Below, piece after piece: positions 3,244 through 26,282 of a DNA stretch of 28,127 nucleotides. Every line of letters starts with the position of its first letter. The stretch's first letter is position 1. Both the position numbers and the translations under genes were made by a program. The notes under the pieces are model-generated. The model did no database searches. It had not been told where the DNA came from and worked only from the letters and a program-made list of their open reading frames with translations. This DNA is from a virus: IMG/VR virus record IMGVR_UViG_3300031857_001060, positions 1-28,127 of that record; one strand, 5' to 3'.

Positions 3244-3837
3244 TTAAGCAGTTACTAAAGTAGGATTCCCTAACAAAGTAAGTAAATCAACCTCAGTAGT
3301 ACAATCTAAGAAATTGGCAGGCTTTTCCTCCATGGCTTCAAAAGTTAATTGATAACCATTAAAATCACCATACGCAACTCCAGAATTAACACTACCAGCA
3401 GTAGCATCACATCCTCTGTATAGACCAGCTAAAAAGAATTGGTTACCATTGGTACGTACCACAATATGTGGACGGCCATAAGCTAAGATCTTGAATTGTT
3501 TGTGGAATACAGGATCCTGTCTTTTTAATTGTACAGTTAATGTCTGAGTAAAGAATGTAGTACCATTATCACGTGATGTGTTAACAGTGGTATCAAATCC
3601 ATTCTGCCCCTTTAACTCATACTTATAGATCTCTGAAGTTAATGCTGGAGCAATAGGTGATAAAGCAATACCAGTGATCTGATCCTCAAATCCTAGAGTA
3701 GTATCATAAGTTACATCCCCACCTCCTGCTACAGGATCTGGGTTAAAGTTACCGAAGTTAATGAAGTAGATAGCCTGGATTCCAGATATACTATCTTTAC
3801 ATTGCTCGGTACGTCCGTTTGAAATTATACAAGCCAT
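3244..3837 (-). CDS. Putative major tail tube protein
   Basis: The 197-residue product is beta-rich, with few charged patches and a Gly/Asn-rich texture. The segments RPHIVVRTNGNQFFLAG (about 126-142) and GDFNGYQLTFEAMEEKPANF near 157-176 are the most family-like. I recall proteins with this layout as tail-tube or major tail proteins of Bacteroidota siphoviruses, which polymerise around the tape measure. It sits between the major capsid gene and the portal unit rather than beside the tape measure, and is bracketed by two strong hairpins, which fits a highly expressed structural gene. A capsid decoration protein is the main alternative. The start follows an A-rich leader without Shine-Dalgarno sequence. 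Confidence 0.5.
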   Translation of the reverse strand: MACIISNGRTEQCKDSISGIQAIYFINFGNFNPDPVAGGGDVTYDTTLGFEDQITGIALSPIAPALTSEIYKYELKGQNGFDTTVNTSRDNGTTFFTQTLTVQLKRQDPVFHKQFKILAYGRPHIVVRTNGNQFFLAGLYRGCDATAGSVNSGVAYGDFNGYQLTFEAMEEKPANFLDCTTEVDLLTLLGNPTLVTA

Positions 3838-3848
3838 TTTTATTTTTT

Positions 3849-3876
3849 ATTAAAGGGGAGCAGTTACCCACTCCCC
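3849..3876 (-). terminator. Terminator/attenuator hairpin after the major capsid gene
   Basis: On the minus strand GGGGAG (3876-3871) and CTCCCC (3860-3855) pair. The inner T·G, G·T and G-C pairs close a GTAA tetraloop, giving nine pairs in all. The following bases TTTAAT form only a weak U tail. It lies between the capsid stop and the tail-tube start and could attenuate read-through or stabilise capsid mRNA. Confidence 0.6.
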
Positions 3877-3890
3877 ATGATTATTTTATA

Positions 3891-4856
3891 TTAGTTAGCA
3901 GAGTTAACAATACCGTAAGTTACGATATCCTCAACAACTCCATACTGAGCACCACCAGCCATACGCATGATAACACGTACATTTTGTGATCCATCAATAT
4001 CAGACATATCAATAACCTTAACTTCATTCATATCAGATAAGATAGAAGTACCAAAGAATAGGTTATCAGTAGTAGTAGCGATAGCAGTGTTAGAAGCTAA
4101 TCCTGGTGCCCAGAAAATCTCAACTCCATCAATGCTCAAAGATCCGTTATTGTACCACTGAGTAGATTGGTTATTAACCCCTGTACCTGGAGTAACAGCA
4201 GCAGATGCACCTGATACAGTAGAGAATCCACCTAATGCACGTACATATGCCTTAGCAATGTTAGTAGATACATAGATACGTAGGTTAGGATTACCATAAA
4301 GTGCAGCAGGAATTGCATCAACAATCTTACCTAATTCTACTACTACGTTCAAAGCAGTTACAGTAGTACCAGTTACCTCCTGAGCTACAGGAAGTGCAGC
4401 ATCCAATGCAACTAAAGTAGAGATACCATCAAATGATCCAGAAGTACCAGTAGCACCTGTCCAGAATGCTGTCTCAACGTTAGCAGCAACTTTATCAGAT
4501 ACGTGAGCAATAACGAAATCAGCGAATGATTTAGGTAAAGTTTTGAATGAAGAGAATCCCATCTCAGCAGCTTGCCATGTAGAGAAAAAATCTTTCTTAC
4601 ATAACTCTAAATTCACCTGTAGATCTTTAGTAGTTAATACTTTCTCAGTTAATGTAACTGTAGATAGATCAGAGAATGCACAGCTAGAGTTTTTCAAAAT
4701 TGCATCTGTAGAAACTTTTTGAATAACTTGCTTGTAATGTACATTAGGAAGTACAGTTACTCCACCATTCTCAATGGTAGGAGCAGATAATAGAGCTGCA
4801 GATACATATTTCCCTGCAAACTCACCAGCATAAGTGGTTGTAATTGAAGTAGCCAT
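3891..4856 (-). CDS. Major capsid protein (HK97-fold type)
   Basis: This 321-residue protein should be the capsid subunit. It follows a scaffold-like gene, has the length and Ala/Thr/Val/Gly-rich composition usual for HK97-type capsid proteins, and lacks recognisable enzyme motifs. The N-terminal 60 residues are polar and flexible. The middle contains the helix-rich KKDFFSTWQAAEMGFSSF and FADFVIAHVSDKVAANVETA segments (around 85-132), like the long spine helix region. The end (RMAGGAQYGVVEDIVTYG) resembles the closing strand of this fold. The start follows an A-rich leader, suiting strong A-dependent initiation in Bacteroidota. Maturation by the upstream XkdF-like protease is likely but no cleavage site can be assigned. 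Confidence 0.85.
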   Translation of the reverse strand: MATSITTTYAGEFAGKYVSAALLSAPTIENGGVTVLPNVHYKQVIQKVSTDAILKNSSCAFSDLSTVTLTEKVLTTKDLQVNLELCKKDFFSTWQAAEMGFSSFKTLPKSFADFVIAHVSDKVAANVETAFWTGATGTSGSFDGISTLVALDAALPVAQEVTGTTVTALNVVVELGKIVDAIPAALYGNPNLRIYVSTNIAKAYVRALGGFSTVSGASAAVTPGTGVNNQSTQWYNNGSLSIDGVEIFWAPGLASNTAIATTTDNLFFGTSILSDMNEVKVIDMSDIDGSQNVRVIMRMAGGAQYGVVEDIVTYGIVNSAN

Positions 4857-4874: not shown

Positions 4875-5474
4875 TTAATTGTTTAATTTATTTAAGATAC
4901 GATCCATAGTAGATTCTCTTCTGTTAGCTCCCCACTGGAAGTTAGCTGTAGGATTCTCTTTCTCTGGATTATGAGCTATAGGCTTAGCAGCAGGCTCATC
5001 AATTACTGGTGCCTCTTCTACTACAGGCTGCTCAGATAATTGTGCTTTCAATGCTTCATTCTCTGCCTTTAACTCTTCGATTTTACTGAATAACATCTCC
5101 TCAACTTGAGATTTGATTATCTTTTTAGGTTGAGCTGCAGGAGCCTCTTCAGACATCATTGGGGCCTCAGCTTCAGGAGCTTCAGGAGCCTCAACTTCTA
5201 CCTCTACCTCAGGAGCTTGCTCCTCTTCTTTCTCCTTAATCTCAGCAATAACTCCCTCAGTAGCTACTACTAACATTCTGCCATCCTCTAGCTCATACTC
5301 ACCAACAGGTAAAGCAATACGCTGCTCATCCTCAGTAACAATAAATACTTCCATACCTGGCTCGAATGCATCAGCCTCTAGTACAGTTACTCCATCCATT
5401 AACTTCATGGATGCCAGCTCCACCTTCTCCATTCCGAGAAGTGCAGAGATACGTGATAAAATTGATTCTTTCAT
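4875..5474 (-). CDS. Capsid scaffolding-like acidic protein
   Basis: 199 residues in three parts. A compact beta-rich N-terminus covers about 1-82. A strongly acidic Glu/Ala/Pro/Val linker covers about 83-118. A coiled-coil segment around residues 125-147 (MLFSKIEELKAENEALKAQL) leads to a basic tail ending RRESTMDRILNKLNN. An acidic, partly coiled protein with a basic C-terminus encoded directly before the capsid gene matches the scaffolding role, where the tail binds capsid subunits during prohead assembly. The gene begins 12 bases after a TGAGTTAT motif, so it may open the head transcription unit. The function is inferred from position and composition. Confidence 0.6.
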   Translation of the reverse strand: MKESILSRISALLGMEKVELASMKLMDGVTVLEADAFEPGMEVFIVTEDEQRIALPVGEYELEDGRMLVVATEGVIAEIKEKEEEQAPEVEVEVEAPEAPEAEAPMMSEEAPAAQPKKIIKSQVEEMLFSKIEELKAENEALKAQLSEQPVVEEAPVIDEPAAKPIAHNPEKENPTANFQWGANRRESTMDRILNKLNN

Positions 5475-14068: not shown

Positions 14069-14222
14069 TCTCTTTTATTACGTGGTGGTAGGCCAGCCTC
14101 AACATCTCAAAATGATCAGAGAATCTACGTACATCATTGAATACAATCTGTACCTTTCTCCCCTTCTTATCCAGGATATATGCCTGGACCACTGCAATCA
14201 TTTCATTGAGATCATTTGTCAT
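14043..14222 (-). CDS. Small protein opening the tail unit
   Basis: 59 residues from ATG 14222, overlapping the chaperone start by 26 bases. The sequence MTNDLNEMIAVVQAYILDKK begins an amphipathic helix, followed by a strand (RKVQIVFNDVRRF) and a His-containing basic tail. I do not recognise a family. Support comes from the putative late promoter ending six bases before the ATG and from the coupling overlap. It occupies most of the otherwise empty gap between large terminase and chaperone. Confidence 0.55.
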   Translation of the reverse strand: MTNDLNEMIAVVQAYILDKKGRKVQIVFNDVRRFSDHFEMLRLAYHHVIKENESRHNRT

Positions 14223-14228
14223 ATACTA

Positions 14229-14252
14229 ATAACTCACATTACTGTCATTTGT
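14229..14252 (-). promoter_or_regulatory. Putative phage late promoter (d), before the tail unit
   Basis: On the minus strand TGAGTTAT is at 14236-14229, with ACA beginning at 14252, 16 nt upstream. The ATG at 14222 follows after six bases. It lies in the 103-bp space after the large terminase gene, one of the few real intergenic gaps of the late region. Confidence 0.5.
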
Positions 14253-14325
14253 AGTATCGTATCTCAATGCTCTCATTCTCACTGCTTTATCTACCTTTAA
14301 TTAAACAATTACTTTAACTCTTTTA

Positions 14326-15534
14326 TTATCTTATATAGTACTTTCCTTTGTTTGGATTTTCGAGCTGGTAACTAATAGCATATCTAATAGCATCCAGTGC
14401 ATGATTCCATTTATCTATTGGGGTTTTACTCTTCTGAGATAACCAGCAGTAGTTATTCAGTTCCTTAATCAGCTCTATGCTACCCTCATCTATCACCAGG
14501 TCATAATCCTGCATCAGGCTGATACCATAGCTCACTGAATCAGGCCCCTTAATTGCAGGCATAACATTGCACCCCATAGCATTCAGCTCAGTGATTAACC
14601 GGGGCTCTGCACTATCCCCTATGATTAGGTTAGCTCCTGCTCTACTCTTATTGATATCCGCTATCATGGAGGTGGTTAGGCCCTTCTCATACAGGTGCAA
14701 TCTTAGGTATATTTTCTTATTTGTGGTATCAATGGATGTTTCTACTAGCGTAGTAGGATCCTGTGAGAATCCGTAATCCTGTCCAAAAACTACAGAGCCC
14801 ATATTCTGGAATAGCCCTATGGACCAGTTAGAGAATATCACTCCTTCTGCTTTATCTAACCATCCACCTAAAATAGTATGCTGATATTTATCTGGCCTCC
14901 GTTCCTGCATGATAGCCACCTCATCTAGGAATGACTGCGGTAGGTTAGCTATGTTATCCTGGTACGTTGTATGGATGTAGCAGGTATCCCCATTCTCAGT
15001 ATTAGATCCAGGTTGCACCCCTCTATCCTCAAAGAATCTCTTGTATATCCAATGCTCCTTAGTGGATGGATTCAGGATCAGTATCACCCTGTTATCTCTT
15101 TTACTGCTACGGATGGATAGGTTAATCTTATCAAAGGTATTCTCTTCTGTTAGCTCTTCTGCCTCATCCACTATCCAGGTAGTTATTCCCTGTAATGATT
15201 TTAAGTTAGCTGTCTGATCACCGGATGAAGTTTTGATACCTCTGAATATAATCTCACTGCCTGATGTCTTATTGAGTATCTCACTCTTAGTTATCTCGAA
15301 ATGGGCCTCTAATCCCATGAGCTCTATTTTCTCCTTGAATTCTGGAATGATAGATATATGGGCTGATGTCATGGTTTGCCGGGTGAATAGTATCTTATGC
15401 CCTGGCTCGAATGATAGCAGGCATACCCATGCAGCTACGCTAAATGATTTAGAGCTACCTCTACCTCCAGTGATCACATAGTATCTGCTATCACTCCTGA
15501 ATAAATTACTATACTTCGAGCTTAGGCGTATCAT
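14326..15534 (-). CDS. terL: Terminase large subunit (packaging ATPase and nuclease)
   Basis: 402 residues. The ATPase half has Walker A GGRGSSKS (23-30), Walker B WIVDEAEE (120-127) and a coupling-type motif ILNPST (153-158). The nuclease half has the RNase H-like acidic residues in GQDYGF (D253), IGDSAEP (D307) and HALDAIRYAI (D381). The protein pumps DNA into proheads through the portal and cuts the concatemer. Length and motif spacing fit the Terminase_3/PBSX-like group. The start overlaps the small subunit gene by 26 bases in another frame, a common arrangement for coupled synthesis. All key residues appear intact. Confidence 0.95.
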   Translation of the reverse strand: MIRLSSKYSNLFRSDSRYYVITGGRGSSKSFSVAAWVCLLSFEPGHKILFTRQTMTSAHISIIPEFKEKIELMGLEAHFEITKSEILNKTSGSEIIFRGIKTSSGDQTANLKSLQGITTWIVDEAEELTEENTFDKINLSIRSSKRDNRVILILNPSTKEHWIYKRFFEDRGVQPGSNTENGDTCYIHTTYQDNIANLPQSFLDEVAIMQERRPDKYQHTILGGWLDKAEGVIFSNWSIGLFQNMGSVVFGQDYGFSQDPTTLVETSIDTTNKKIYLRLHLYEKGLTTSMIADINKSRAGANLIIGDSAEPRLITELNAMGCNVMPAIKGPDSVSYGISLMQDYDLVIDEGSIELIKELNNYCWLSQKSKTPIDKWNHALDAIRYAISYQLENPNKGKYYIR

Positions 15535-20801: not shown

Positions 20802-23123
20802 TTATGATTCCTTCTCTATGGTTAATTCAAAGTACCTACCATGCTGATCTCTATTCCGGGTAAATTTATATCCCTTATAACTTGCATAGGCCTGCACCCA
20901 TTTCAAGTACTTTCTAGAATCTAGATCCTTAAATCCATTAGTATCTGCCTGGAATGATTCCATGGATGCCTTATTATAATTTCTGATAGCTAAGGTTATA
21001 TTCCCATCCATAACGAAATCATAGAATTCTTTACAGGTATTCTGAATGAATCTCTTAGCATCTGCATTGATACTCTTACTTCTTATCAATCCATTCTGCA
21101 GGTACATCTGTAGGTTATTCAGCATATAGTTATCGAAATTAGCCCATTCACTGGATGTCCATTCATCAAATAATAGCTTACCATATTCATCCTGGGGATT
21201 CCGTTGGGAATTAAAGTACTGGAAAAACTCTATCTCATGCCTTCTCCTGTCATGGGATGTACCAGCTCCACTGATAACATAGTTAGTAGTGATCACTATC
21301 TTAGGGCTCCGCTCGAATGGGATATATATCTCATCCTTATTCTTTCGGTTTACAGGAATCCCCTCAGTGATAAGTGAGAATAACTGCTCAAAATCAAAAT
21401 GCTTTTTAACATCATCAAATGCTAGTACCTGAGTATCTAGATTCACCCTCTGATATACAAAATCACTCTTTGATGGATTGAATGCTTTACCATCTATCTT
21501 AATAATCTTTCGGATGTTACCTATAGCTGTTAGCATTAGGCTCTTACCACTCCCTCCATTAGGATTATCATCTATCTCCTGATCATTAAAAATGATAGCC
21601 TTCTGATCTGTTTTATCTTTGAATGTATGTATCAGATATCCCAGTGTGGATTCCATTGCTTTAATCCGTTCACTATCCTGGGCTGATACCTTATGTACAA
21701 AATCCTGGAAGTTATTATCATGAGATGGTAACCTAGTGAAATCTCGCTTAATGATCTGCTCCTTCCAGATGTATCCATCCACATCAATGTAACTAATCAG
21801 CTCCACTCCATCCTTAGTAACCTGCACCACTCCATTAAGGAATGGGATATAACTAACATCCCTGGTATCCTGCAGTATTTTCATATCAATGGATTCCAGC
21901 ATATTAAGATGGGATTCAGTGAACAGGTATACGCTTTTAGCACAGAAATCATATATATCCATCTCCTCCTTATCTTTGAGATAGTTAAGTACGAAATCCT
22001 TAATCAGATCTACTGAGCTCTCAGATACCTTATTCTCTTGAATGTATACATATGTAGGCTTCTTACTGCCTTCTGGATAGTACTTAGCGAATCCATGCTT
22101 ATGCAGGAACTTACCATAATCATGCGGCACTATCTTAATCTTATTCCCATCCTGCTCCCAGAATTTATCATCCACATTCTGCACCTCCTTCTTAACTGAA
22201 TCAATGATACCACTATGCACTCCTAACTGCTTCTGAATCTCCTCCTCACTGATACCATCCTTTAGCTTTATCTTTACCTTCTTAACTGTGCTGATATCCT
22301 CGAAGTACTTTATTCCGAATGATGCTCTTTTATATGCAGAGCCTATAGCTATCATTATCTCAGATGCTGTAAAATCAGGCTGATGATACTGCTGCAGGTA
22401 TTCATTGGCTGTATGCTCATCCACTCCATACTCACACATACAGCAGGCCACCCTGTATATCCAGTTATTCCTGGCTTCATCAAAACTGCCATGATTAAAT
22501 TTCATGATCAGCTCTACTATCCTTTCCTCATTGGTGATAGCTAGCACTGGGATTCTCTCAGTAACTGTATATCCTTTATCCTGGGATATATCAGTGAATA
22601 CCTCAGCGAATTCATTAAGGTATGCATCAGTATCATAGGATTCAAAGCATACCCTACTCACATTACTATTAGCTACATCAAAGTAATCACTATTAATATA
22701 CTCCTTGAATGCCTCGAATCTCCTCTTATGCTCATACTTATCTGATTCAGGTATTCTAATCACCACCTTTAACCCATTACCGGATGGCGAGGTGAATAGC
22801 ATATACACATACGGGCACTCCATTAGCCTATTCCGTTCCTGGAGCTGTACCTTCTGATTAGGATACTTATCGAAATCTAATACACATAGCCCTGAATGAG
22901 CTACTAGGCCATCATCCTTTCTCTCATTAAAGGTGCCATTAAACATTATAGCCATCAGTTTATTCTTACCTTCTGAATCTCCAGCTCGAATTCTATTGAT
23001 CTTAGCTATTATATCAGGATTCCCATTCTTAATCCTGTTGAATACTTCATGTGCTGTTAGCTTAAATGGGGTTTCTTTAGAGCTATATAGGCTCCTGAAA
23101 ACGGAAATTGTGGGGTTATACAT
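20802..23123 (-). CDS. Primase-helicase: VirE_N/BT4734-like domain plus SF3 helicase
   Basis: 773 residues. The N-terminal part (about 1-190) matches the VirE_N/BT4734-like type: VLDFDKYP with D83 and D85, and SPSGNGLKVVIRI (112-124), typical of archaeo-eukaryotic primase-like folds. A PriCT-like helical part follows (about 200-285). The C-terminal half is a superfamily 3 helicase with Walker A NGGSGKS (522-528), Walker B LAFDDV (D570, D571) and a sensor-type KIVITTN ending at N614. It should unwind and prime phage DNA. It lies directly downstream of a repeat-rich gap. The promoter -7 element ends five bases before the ATG, so the mRNA may be leaderless. Confidence 0.85.
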   Translation of the reverse strand: MYNPTISVFRSLYSSKETPFKLTAHEVFNRIKNGNPDIIAKINRIRAGDSEGKNKLMAIMFNGTFNERKDDGLVAHSGLCVLDFDKYPNQKVQLQERNRLMECPYVYMLFTSPSGNGLKVVIRIPESDKYEHKRRFEAFKEYINSDYFDVANSNVSRVCFESYDTDAYLNEFAEVFTDISQDKGYTVTERIPVLAITNEERIVELIMKFNHGSFDEARNNWIYRVACCMCEYGVDEHTANEYLQQYHQPDFTASEIMIAIGSAYKRASFGIKYFEDISTVKKVKIKLKDGISEEEIQKQLGVHSGIIDSVKKEVQNVDDKFWEQDGNKIKIVPHDYGKFLHKHGFAKYYPEGSKKPTYVYIQENKVSESSVDLIKDFVLNYLKDKEEMDIYDFCAKSVYLFTESHLNMLESIDMKILQDTRDVSYIPFLNGVVQVTKDGVELISYIDVDGYIWKEQIIKRDFTRLPSHDNNFQDFVHKVSAQDSERIKAMESTLGYLIHTFKDKTDQKAIIFNDQEIDDNPNGGSGKSLMLTAIGNIRKIIKIDGKAFNPSKSDFVYQRVNLDTQVLAFDDVKKHFDFEQLFSLITEGIPVNRKNKDEIYIPFERSPKIVITTNYVISGAGTSHDRRRHEIEFFQYFNSQRNPQDEYGKLLFDEWTSSEWANFDNYMLNNLQMYLQNGLIRSKSINADAKRFIQNTCKEFYDFVMDGNITLAIRNYNKASMESFQADTNGFKDLDSRKYLKWVQAYASYKGYKFTRNRDQHGRYFELTIEKES

Positions 23124-23127
23124 AGTG

Positions 23128-23157
23128 CAAATATAATAAATGACGTTTAATAAACAA
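23128..23157 (-). promoter_or_regulatory. Bacteroidota-type promoter of the primase-helicase gene
   Basis: On the minus strand TTG (23157-23155), a 19-base spacer and TATATTTG (23135-23128) form a near-perfect TTG-N19-TAnnTTTG. A degenerate copy of the nearby ATGACGATA repeat (23140-23148) lies in the spacer, so a protein bound there would block polymerase. The ATG is at 23123, which predicts little or no leader. Confidence 0.65.
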
Positions 23158-23317
23158 TATATGACAATAAAAAAAAGTTATCGTCATGCCTGTAACTCAA
23201 TACAGGATTAGGTTTCAGCAGTTTCATGACGATATGACGATAAATTTTCCAAAGTTTCAGATAAAAATAGGTACATAGTAAGGGGAAGGTATATAAGGAG
23301 TTTTGTCCTATCGTCAT
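23140..23317. repeat. Cluster of ATGACGATA repeats: candidate origin/initiator boxes
   Basis: Six copies are seen. Exact copies lie at 23226-23234 and 23234-23242 (plus strand, overlapping by one base) and at 23179-23187 and 23309-23317 (minus strand). Degenerate copies are ATGACAATA at 23161-23169 and ATGACGTTT at 23140-23148. Two exact copies read TTATCGTCA on the other strand, 7 of 9 bases like the DnaA box TTATCCACA. A-runs (23170-23176, 23326-23333) and a perfect inverted repeat CCTGTA-N6-TACAGG (23189-23206) lie in the same gap. I saw no further exact copy elsewhere in the window. It fits an origin or operator region. Confidence 0.6.
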
Positions 23318-23325
23318 ATTGGCAT

Positions 23326-23351
23326 AAAAAAAAGAGGAGCTAATGCCCCCC
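23326..23351 (-). terminator. Strong terminator after the DnaA-like gene
   Basis: On the minus strand GGGGGGC (23351-23345), loop ATTA and GCTCCTC (23340-23334) form a 7-bp stem with two G·U pairs, followed by eight T (23333-23326). The TAG stop of the gene (23342-23340) lies at the loop and 3' stem junction. This closes the early operon before the candidate origin. Confidence 0.85.
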
Positions 23352-23840
23352 TTCTCCTGTATTAACCCTTAAAAAATTATGTGATTCAAAGATATTAATT
23401 AAATCAGATGCACTCATCTTATCCTCGAACTTTGTTAATAACTTTGGTGGTATATTCCCAGTGATAGTGATCCTGGCCTCCTCATCACATAAGGGCATCA
23501 CGTTCACATCAAAGATTCCTATATCATCTCTCTTTGCCTTAATTAGATCAGGTAGTGGATGGATGTACTTAAGGTACCTTGAATCTTTTTTGCTGTACCA
23601 GTACTGATGCTCTCGCATTCCATGTATCACAGAGCTATGATCCCGGTTAAAGAATTTACCTATCATACTGAATGTCATGTGCCGGTGATTGTACAGGAAA
23701 TTGTACAGGTAGTACCTCTTATATGCTACATCCTCTCTCCTGCTCTTAGTGTTGAGCTGGAATGATTCTATGATATTCCATACATCCTCATTCTGTAGCT
23801 GTGTTAACTTGAACACAGTCTCATCTATTTCTCCTCTCAT
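23340..23840 (-). CDS. DnaA domain IV-like DNA-binding protein, candidate phage initiator
   Basis: 166 residues. Residues about 33-78 closely follow DnaA domain IV: a basic RREDVAYKRYYLYNFLY segment, then MTFSMIGKFFNRDHSSVIHG (55-74). The last part matches the DnaA signature GRDHTTVxHA, which contacts the DnaA box. There is no AAA+ domain, so it cannot melt DNA by itself like DnaA. The C-terminal 90 residues are unrecognised. The gene ends at the repeat cluster 23140-23317, whose copies partly resemble DnaA boxes. It may bring the primase-helicase to the origin or regulate the promoter there. A transcription factor role alone is possible. Confidence 0.65.
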   Translation of the reverse strand: MRGEIDETVFKLTQLQNEDVWNIIESFQLNTKSRREDVAYKRYYLYNFLYNHRHMTFSMIGKFFNRDHSSVIHGMREHQYWYSKKDSRYLKYIHPLPDLIKAKRDDIGIFDVNVMPLCDEEARITITGNIPPKLLTKFEDKMSASDLINIFESHNFLRVNTGEGGH

Positions 23841-24025: not shown

Positions 24026-24276
24026 TGTAAGTAATTTTTTAACCGTTCAAAAAAATCTATTTTCTCATGCAGCCTAATTCCTTCTGCACCTGCCTGATAA
24101 TTTTCCATATCTAAATTCCATTTAACCCAGTATAGATCCTTCTCTATTTGGCTCTTGCAGTAGTTAGCATCCATCTTATCATTTATCTTAGCCTGGATAT
24201 CTTTGGTTTTATGGAATTCTAGATCATTGAGTATCTCAATTATCAGATATACTCTCTTAAGTTGTGGTATTTTCAT
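24022..24276 (-). CDS. Winged-helix-like small protein
   Basis: 84 residues. The segment LKRVYLIIEILNDLEFHKTKD (split at 6-26) followed by IQAKINDKMDANYCKSQIEKD (27-47) and a strand pair to GIRLHEKIDF resembles a DeoR- or WYL-type winged helix, where the second and third helices read DNA. It overlaps the preceding HTH gene by 20 bases. The two proteins are similar in plan and may be a duplicated pair. DNA binding is an inference from the helix pattern. Confidence 0.5.
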   Translation of the reverse strand: MKIPQLKRVYLIIEILNDLEFHKTKDIQAKINDKMDANYCKSQIEKDLYWVKWNLDMENYQAGAEGIRLHEKIDFFERLKNYLQ

Positions 24277-24466
24277 TTTTCTCTATAAAGTATTTATTAA
24301 ACTTATCCTTCTTTACTCGCATCTCTAGCTTTATAAAAAGCTGTAGGTATCTATAGGCTGTCCTTTCACTGGTACCTAAGTACCTGGATATTCCCATCAC
24401 TGTCCTGGGCTTTTCCTGTAGCATCTGCATGAGCCTTAGCACCCTGTATATTTTGTGCTGATTCAT
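24257..24466 (-). CDS. Winged helix-turn-helix regulator-like protein
   Basis: 69 residues: KIYRVLRLMQMLQEKPRTVM (5-24), then the classic ISRYLGTSERTAYRYLQLF (26-44) and a basic strand part (MRVKKDKFNKYFIE). This is the HTH_11/DeoR-like winged helix seen in WYL-type regulators and in many small Bacteroidota phage proteins. It likely binds phage or host promoters. The ATG overlaps the upstream stop as ATGA and the gene overlaps the next by 20 bases. The palindromic sites at 26208-26282 are possible targets, but this is speculative. Confidence 0.65.
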   Translation of the reverse strand: MNQHKIYRVLRLMQMLQEKPRTVMGISRYLGTSERTAYRYLQLFIKLEMRVKKDKFNKYFIEKNENTTT

Positions 24467-25851: not shown

Positions 25852-25940
25852 ATTATCAGTATTAAAATTTGGTAAATAATAATTGGAAGTACTGCCACGA
25901 ATAGGGCAGAGAAAATGTCATCAAGTAGTTTATTTTTCAT
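25845..25940 (-). CDS. 31-residue single-span membrane peptide
   Basis: From ATG 25940 to TAG 25845. A charged start MKNKLLDD is followed by a continuous hydrophobic stretch IFSALFVAVLPIIIYQILIL (9-28), so it should be one inner-membrane helix with the N-terminus in the cytoplasm. It overlaps the preceding gene by 11 bases and the next by seven, filling a gap exactly. Function is unknown. It matches the other 31-residue membrane peptide at 17900-17995 in size but not in sequence. Confidence 0.5.
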   Translation of the reverse strand: MKNKLLDDIFSALFVAVLPIIIYQILILIIC

Positions 25941-26091
25941 CATTTAAGTTTAATCGGGTTAATAATTCATCCATCACCATCCACTGGCTAAATGCTTTTT
26001 GAGTAGCATCATCTAATGCTCCGAATGCATCTCTGAGCTCTACATAATCAGCCCATAATTCCTGCTCGTAACTTTTAATTGTGTCTATCAT
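25930..26091 (-). CDS. First gene of the early operon, small acidic helical protein
   Basis: 53 residues from ATG 26091. The frame is open upstream to a GTG at 26211, but that part contains the promoter, so the ATG is preferred. The sequence (MIDTIKSYEQELWADYVELR, then FGALDDATQKAFSQWMVMDEL) is helical and acidic. I recognise no family. It lies 28 bases downstream of a good TAnnTTTG promoter and is probably among the first proteins made after infection. Confidence 0.55.
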   Translation of the reverse strand: MIDTIKSYEQELWADYVELRDAFGALDDATQKAFSQWMVMDELLTRLNLNDEK

Positions 26092-26119: not shown

Positions 26120-26149
26120 CAAAGATACAAAAAGTTTCGTATCTGCAAA
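26120..26149 (-). promoter_or_regulatory. Bacteroidota-type promoter of the early operon
   Basis: On the minus strand TTTG (26149-26146), 18 bases, then TATCTTTG (26127-26120) matches the TTG and TAnnTTTG elements used by the primary sigma of Bacteroidota. The next ATG (26091) lies 28 bases downstream after an A-rich leader. It is the best placed promoter for immediate expression by host polymerase. Confidence 0.65.
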
Positions 26150-26207
26150 TAATTTTGCACATTTTTTTTAGTTATGCACAAATTTAGAATGATTCTAAAT
26201 AAGGAAC

Positions 26208-26282
26208 TCACATTATAAGTGTAGAATTGTGGTGAAAATGTCTTAAAATAAGGGTAATAACGTGATAATCACATTATAAGTG
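26208..26282. repeat. Direct repeat TCACATTATAAGTG, two copies, with adjoining palindrome
   Basis: TCACATTATAAGTG occurs exactly at 26208-26221 and 26269-26282, 61 bp apart, close to six helical turns. The second copy overlaps the perfect palindrome GTGATAATCAC (26262-26272). The unit has CAC...GTG ends around TTATAA. Both copies lie upstream of the early promoter. They look like binding sites for one dimeric regulator. Confidence 0.55.

Follow-up and report, generated by a model that had tools for sequence, protein, structure and literature searches.

The DnaA-like protein and the repeats located next to its gene appear to belong to two separate specificities in a group of phages represented by a 28,127-base virus record, which was analyzed over its full length (hereinafter, the window). 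On balance, we consider it probable that the primase-helicase encoded beyond the repeats reads them as origin repeats and that the DnaA-like protein is a regulator acting at DnaA-type boxes of an early promoter. Both sets of sites are conserved among relatives, and natural recombinants dissociate the two systems in both directions; binding of either protein to its sites is what we infer from these patterns. A sequence-only reading of this region had proposed a self-contained initiator and origin; its domain IV-only protein, its conserved repeats and its origin-like gap in front of the primase-helicase gene stand, whereas the role of the DnaA-like protein as the initiator for these repeats is not supported.

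Window layout, gap and repeats

All major genes of the window are located on the minus strand, in the order early promoter (approximately 26149-26120), small genes, DnaA-like gene (23840-23340), hairpin (23352-23335), 216-bp gap, primase promoter (23157-23128) and primase-helicase gene (23123-20802). The features in and around the gap are the following:

23340..23840, minus strand: DnaA-like protein of 166 aa whose only DnaA part is domain IV (residues ~16-105), extended at the C-terminus; proposed regulator of early-operon transcription
23335..23352, minus strand: terminator-like hairpin with a T run where the DnaA-like gene ends
23124..23339, minus strand: AT-rich gap with repeats, 216 bp; proposed replication origin and primase-helicase operator
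23309..23317, plus strand: repeat 1, TATCGTCAT, exact
23234..23242, minus strand: repeat 2, TATCGTCAT, exact, in tandem with repeat 3 at an 8-bp pitch
23226..23234, minus strand: repeat 3, TATCGTCAT, exact
23179..23187, plus strand: repeat 4, TATCGTCAT, exact
23161..23169, minus strand: repeat 5, TATTGTCAT, with one mismatch, immediately before the primase promoter -33 element
23140..23148, minus strand: repeat 6, AAACGTCAT, two mismatches, between the -33 and -7 elements of the primase promoter
23128..23157, minus strand: primase promoter, TTG-N19-TATATTTG, which we take to be of the Bacteroidota type
20802..23123, minus strand: primase-helicase, 773 aa, BT4734-like_N and PriCT_1 (Pfam), Walker A motif NPNGGSGKS, C-terminal part (~656-773) of putative winged-helix type; proposed initiator on the repeats

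The description of an AT-rich, repeat-bearing gap before the primase-helicase gene is accurate: the gap is 69.4% AT compared to 61.7% for the window, and the repeats are clustered in it. All four exact copies of TATCGTCAT among the 28,127 bases lie inside the gap, and so do all five copies with at most one mismatch, against 8.2 expected window-wide by chance; the total number of near copies is not raised, and their clustering is. Six repeats had been counted, of which four are exact and one has a single mismatch, but the sixth (23140-23148) has two; at its place, the gap alignment shows a ATCGTCAT/ATTGTCAT-like sequence in many relatives. As claimed, the gap contains two copies of TTATCGTCA, which shares 7 of 9 positions with TTATCCACA; the window has no copy of TTATCCACA itself. 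In a scan for 7-mer clusters, the gap words GACGATA (4 of 4 copies in the cluster), ATGACGA (4 of 4) and ATCGTCA (4 of 5) stand out from the other local clusters of the window, which consist of words with 12-25 copies overall, because the gap words are almost absent elsewhere in the window.

The blocks of the gap alignment comprise 22 of the gaps, and L013 and L032 were retained in the alignment despite their broken-looking reading frames. Nearly all close relatives aligned have gaps of 216-218 bp (232 bp in L002), and the positions of the repeats are fixed, with one repeat by the terminator, a tandem pair, one repeat in the opposite sense and copies around the promoter. Given this conservation of the gap and its repeats, the gap is likely to be an origin. 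GC skew, the examination of which had been proposed as a check, does not switch anywhere along the window, with its major genes on one strand, and accordingly places no origin. Outside the gap, the window contains no near copies of the repeat (at most one mismatch) compared to about 8 expected by shuffling, which might reflect avoidance of stray initiator sites; the relative G009 has four such copies outside its gap.

The DnaA-like protein is, as the sequence-only reading had stated, a DnaA domain IV-type protein without an AAA+ domain: the suggested comparison with Bac_DnaA_C yields a match to PF08299 at residues 28-76 (32.4 bits against a cut-off of 31.5) that is the sole Pfam match of the 166-aa protein, and the fold is that of domain IV. 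The best fold matches of the structural model (pLDDT 81) are DnaA domain IV chains (3pvp, Z 9.3; 1j1v, Z 9.0). A PDB search with the single sequence produced no match; a profile of the family (24 relatives) retrieved five DnaA sequences from PDB with E-values of 1.7e-5 to 0.0011. In the profile alignment to E. coli DnaA, with residue numbering derived by hand, a near-invariant arginine of the family corresponds to R399 and the family DHS motif to D433-H434-T435; the DNA-contact residues of DnaA domain IV are retained in the family. The PHROGs search with this protein gave no good family (best E 0.076), and a scan of IMG/VR detected 79 relatives.

No helicase family was matched in the Pfam search with the primase-helicase. 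Its structural model is poor (mean pLDDT 59.5) outside of the C-terminal part, where helices and a beta hairpin of winged-helix type are modeled at pLDDT ~84-91, and winged-helix proteins are among the fold matches to residues 684-773, with Z up to 5.8. Fold matches of the primase include NrS-1 PrimPol, vaccinia D5, SaPI5 primase-helicase and AsfvPrimPol, all with modest scores (Z below 7). The -7 element of the primase promoter, TATATTTG, stops 4 nt before the ATG (23121-23135), with a similar arrangement in relatives; given this distance of only four bases, transcripts of the primase gene may carry almost no leader.

The pattern TTG-N17-21-TAnnTTTG has only two matches on the coding strand across the entire window, namely, at the early and primase promoters. 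We take this TTTG/TAnnTTTG promoter type to be the Bacteroidota type; a scan for sigma-70 promoters finds fewer matches in the window than in shuffles, which would fit a host using the former type. The promoter type, together with phage records with known hosts, points to Bacteroidota as the host phylum, the named primase relatives being phages of Flavobacterium, Polaribacter, Maribacter and Bacteroides. A search of bacterial genomes for primase relatives as a clue to the host returned none, and a literature search, with most subscription journals outside its reach, returned no description of this phage system.

Repeats, primase and DnaA-like protein across natural recombinants

From 98 primase loci, six without enough upstream sequence (L093, L127, L165, L173, L175, L178) were removed and four were added, resulting in 96 loci, or 97 with the window, of which 88 are complete enough for the comparison of recombinants. 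Several loci share contigs, and close copies were removed before the calculation of correlations, with 54, 48 or 57 loci kept. In 91 of the 96 primase loci, the gap is immediately preceded by the DnaA-like gene; among the remaining five, three contigs start too close to the gap, a related ORF lies at a distance of 1.6 kb in L174, and L176 lacks one. This adjacency suggests that the DnaA-like protein and the repeats work together and is a point against the two-specificity reading. In pieces of G011, G013 and G015, which carry a DnaA-like gene without such a primase, no repeat cluster was found beside that gene.

The recombinants separate the DnaA-like protein from the repeats, so that the proposal of this protein as their initiator is not borne out. 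Metagenome contigs are the source of the key recombinants; many contigs carry the Prim-Pol arrangement, but L138 and L172 are single cases. L048 and L161 (the latter on the same contig as L049) encode a 120-aa DnaA-like protein that is identical in every residue (100%), with closely related genes on either side; their primases are 21% identical, and their repeat similarity is 0.00, L048 combining TTTGCGTCAT repeats with a primase-helicase of the BT4734 type and L161 combining TGTGCAAAG repeats with one of the Prim-Pol type. Likewise, L138 and L144 have DnaA-like proteins with 96% identity, primases with 70% identity and a repeat similarity of 0.00. The opposite dissociation is seen between L138 and L125, where the DnaA-like proteins are 15% identical, the primases 87% identical and the repeats the same (similarity 0.89), and between L172 and L171 (DnaA-like protein 25%, primase 80%, repeat similarity 0.73). 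Thus, unlike the cognate boxes at the origin of a full DnaA, the repeats dissociate from the DnaA-like protein; as in D5-type initiator helicases, the iterons adjoin the helicase gene and co-vary with it.

The correlations across loci are compatible with this pattern. In 54 dereplicated loci, the partial correlation of the repeats is 0.50 with the primase and 0.25 with the DnaA-like protein, both significant by permutation; in 48 loci, with a looser word cut-off, the respective values are 0.61 and 0.33. The primase appears to carry most of the repeat signal, and the unexplained remainder that goes with the DnaA-like protein (0.25-0.33 given the primase, p ~0.001) would be compatible with a minor role of the latter. 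In a joint regression over 57 loci of the BT4734 type, the C-terminal 118 residues of the primase have a beta of 0.64 (p 0.003), compared to 0.06 for the DnaA-like protein (p 0.27), 0.33 for PriCT (p 0.10), 0.24 for the helicase (p 0.15) and -0.44 for the primase N-terminus. When 411 close pairs are considered, the best correlate of the repeats is once more the primase C-terminal part, albeit a weak one (0.39). This part differs most in close pairs with altered repeats (L092/L117, L091/L095, L081/L083), including L092/L117, where the repeats changed and the DnaA-like parts show no difference over the stretch that they share, but also in some pairs with unchanged repeats (L045/L048).

In the Prim-Pol group, the iterons TGTGCAAAG and CTTTGCACA (L161-L172 gaps, e.g., L171 3110-3500) deviate from TTWTNCACA, the consensus of DnaA boxes, at a single position (8 of 9 agree), which makes a DnaA-type reader possible in this group; judging by these sequences, participation of host DnaA or of the DnaA-like protein at the iterons there is conceivable as well. 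In L049, a 198-aa ORF (3803-4399) that is absent in L048 lies between the Prim-Pol primase and a shared 151-aa gene; by eye, it has the look of an HNH-type nuclease and might be a passenger carried by the cassette that was swapped. A 69-aa HTH protein of the window (24257-24466) was considered as an iteron binder and rejected, as L048 has iterons but, by eye, no counterpart of this protein.

In the outgroup phage MW202828 (L194), whose primase is 38% identical, a gene annotated 'dnaA' lies 2.4 kb upstream, and the region before the primase contains no such repeat cluster; four copies of TGATTATC are located at the primase 3' end and beyond. This phage encodes two short proteins annotated as dnaA or chromosomal replication initiation (5034-5336 and 14108-14677) that carry a DnaA-type helix (QHSSVIHG and TDHSTIIHY, respectively), neither of them directly before the primase.

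The early promoter and its DnaA-type boxes

The window contains three matches to TTWTNCACA, two of which lie side by side at 26153-26180, outside the region considered in the sequence-only reading, at a promoter 2.3 kb upstream of the DnaA-like gene:

26182..26200, minus strand: palindrome ATTTAGAATCATTCTAAAT, perfect, 19 bp, directly upstream of the boxes
26172..26180, minus strand: DnaA-type box 1, TGTGCATAA (TTATGCACA on the plus strand)
26153..26161, minus strand: DnaA-type box 2, TGTGCAAAA (TTTTGCACA on the plus strand), 19 bp from box 1 and adjoining the -33 element
26120..26149, minus strand: early promoter, TTTG-N18-TATCTTTG
25930..26091, minus strand: small ORF of 53 aa that starts with ATG, the first after the early promoter (the ORF list began it at a GTG at 26211, upstream of the promoter)

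In the alignment of early promoters, for which loci were picked for having a box, relatives share the order palindrome (TTTAGAATnATTCTAAA, in many of them), box, box, -33 element, TATCTTTG. The spacing of the boxes is about 20 bp, or about 10 bp in the L097 subgroup, where the boxes read exactly TTTTCCACA. The palindrome recurs as TTTAGAATnATTnTAAA at early promoters even in groups with other boxes, and its 7-1-7 form presumably recalls operators of the Fur/PerR type.

In the 73 loci whose sequence extends 2,400 bases or more upstream of the DnaA-like gene, a box on the operon strand is present in 47 of the 49 with a window-type helix in the DnaA-like protein and in 3 of the 24 others; by the strict pattern, 19 of the 49 have a close pair of boxes. 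Altogether, 71 boxes in these 73 loci are on the operon strand and 6 on the opposite strand. L114 and L153, two of the three box-bearing loci with another helix, are taken to have cut-off DnaA-like ORFs, and the third, L168, to be a true exception. At the same place of the promoter, with the promoters anchored by hand from listed candidates, the other-helix groups carry TAATAAC repeats (with DHSTVSYG), TGTTAA repeats (with THGSIIHL) or TTGTATACAA-type sequences (with SHCTVLNG).

Across 48 loci, the similarity of promoter boxes shows a partial correlation of 0.60 (p 0.001) with the DnaA-like protein given the primase and of 0.02 (p 0.39) with the primase given the DnaA-like protein. The boxes are located approximately 1-2.3 kb from the DnaA-like gene and the iterons directly behind it, and the pattern of co-variation is the reverse of that expected from physical distance. 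The co-variation of the boxes with the DnaA-like protein rests on about five groups and may in part represent hitch-hiking of the whole upstream block; the comparison of L145 with L138, where a 119-base promoter island is kept and the flanking sequence on either side is not, argues a little against mere hitch-hiking. The promoters of L172 and L171 differ only weakly (cosine 0.64) and therefore do not help the argument on the boxes. The cosine is a coarse measure, given that it is only 0.52 between the window and L125 despite the paired boxes in both.

With both sets of sites in view, the reading with which we started, that the DnaA-like protein binds the TATCGTCA repeats, starts replication and hands over to the primase-helicase, appears improbable. 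It draws on the adjacency of the gene to the gap in 91 of 96 loci, the domain IV fold with its DNA-contact residues, the residual correlation with the repeats and the likeness of TTATCGTCA to TTATCCACA, but it has to accommodate identical DnaA-like proteins with unrelated repeats (L048/L161), dissimilar ones with the same repeats (L138/L125, L172/L171), the near-zero regression coefficient and the fact that the boxes closer to the DnaA consensus are found at the early promoter instead. We assign a similarly low probability to the repeats being operators only, through which a regulator (the primase or another protein) would control the primase promoter, with the origin elsewhere: repeats 5 and 6 do flank the -33 and -7 elements of that promoter, but four of the six lie well upstream of it, in a conserved register and within an AT-rich gap, and such repeats serve as origins in known relatives of this helicase class, as outlined in PMC7581432 and PMC4234260.

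A third possibility pertains to the boxes rather than to the repeats, namely, that host DnaA reads the early-promoter boxes, so that the phage senses host replication, with the DnaA-like protein competing there or at the host oriC. The boxes fit TTWTNCACA, and those of the L097 subgroup are TTTTCCACA exactly; however, the boxes track the DnaA-like protein of the phage, and the other-helix groups carry other sequences at the same place, although their hosts could differ too. We regard this possibility as unlikely, if slightly less so than the two preceding ones, and favor the reading with two specificities, the primase-helicase at the repeats and the DnaA-like protein at the early promoter.

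Proposed mechanism and comparison with known systems

Under the two-specificity scenario, the TTTG/TAnnTTTG promoter would fire early in infection, with the DnaA-like protein acting at the two boxes by the -33 element and turning the early operon, including its own gene, up or down. Activation appears more likely because the place next to the -33 element suits an activator; repression is possible. The operon would yield the DnaA-like protein along with other early products and end at the terminator. The primase-helicase promoter would then fire until its product fills the iterons, at which point the promoter would be silenced and an initiation complex assembled in the gap; that the primase-helicase also shuts off its own gene is suggested by the location of the last repeats (5 and 6), which flank its own promoter elements. 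The putative C-terminal winged helix of the primase-helicase would bind the iterons, and the protein would open the AT-rich gap, unwind it and prime synthesis.

There are precedents for both halves of this scheme. The C-terminal domains of SaPI Rep and of Cch2 bind short repeats that adjoin the respective genes, as outlined in PMC7581432, and the origin repeats of P4 alpha are bound by a winged helix, as outlined in PMC4234260. Together with the co-variation of the repeats with the primase, these precedents make a primase-helicase origin the simplest reading of the gap. Similarly to SaPI Rep and SCCmec Cch2, the window protein would combine a D5-type helicase core, joined to a primase as in SaPI5 (7om0), with a C-terminal DNA-binding domain and gene-adjacent repeats as the origin, although its likeness to D5 consists in modest fold scores. 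Unlike in these systems, the repeats are upstream of the gene, around its promoter, rather than downstream, and unlike in SaPI5, the primase part is BT4734-like; a profile search detected no sequence similarity between the window primase-helicase and SaPI5. P4 alpha, compared by description, is likewise a single protein with primase and helicase activities and a winged helix that binds the origin, which has repeats. The P4 alpha primase is of the Toprim type, unlike that of the window. NrS-1 PrimPol shows a weak profile match to residues 80-171 (6a9w, 6k9a, 6k9c; E 0.15-0.18), and 6k9c is the top Foldseek match of the window primase (E 0.008); to our knowledge, no iteron origin is known for NrS-1.

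For the DnaA-like protein, GafA is a precedent for a DnaA-like domain acting at promoters: activation of GTA promoters requires the DnaA-like domain at its N-terminus, according to the parts of PMC9638019 that deal with this domain, and GafY, a split relative of GafA, activates GTA promoters with IHF, as summarized in PMC11150451. By description, GafA and GafY are regulators of the same phage-derived type with a DnaA-like DNA-binding domain; promoter action of the window protein is predicted. They differ from it in host group and in their other domains, and the GafA sites, as far as the relevant parts of PMC9638019 indicate, are apparently not DnaA boxes. The proteins of Pelagibacter phages annotated as 'DNA replication initiation (DnaA)' (e.g., in HTVC100P) are also short and carry a DnaA-type helix, with 32-36% identity over part of the domain, but belong to phages of other hosts, and in MW273924, the one locus compared, the genes that come next are on the opposite strand and do not include a primase.

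A more general picture, in which throughout this widespread phage group, probably infecting Bacteroidota, domain IV has become a dedicated regulator of a single early promoter and could compete with host DnaA at true boxes, with cassettes of iterons and primase-helicase swapping behind the DnaA-like gene, is tentative and, in our estimation, rather doubtful. If it is true, competition between host DnaA and the phage protein could tie the start of infection to the replication state of the host. The present comparison, which uses natural recombinants as swap experiments, corrects an easy misreading, whereby a DnaA-like gene next to repeats is taken for a DnaA-type origin. It also provides two testable sets of specificities, one pairing the primase C-terminal domains with iterons and the other pairing the DnaA-like helices with promoter boxes. 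Where a short phage protein in a setting of this kind is annotated as DnaA or 'replication initiation', its actual function may be that of a transcription regulator.
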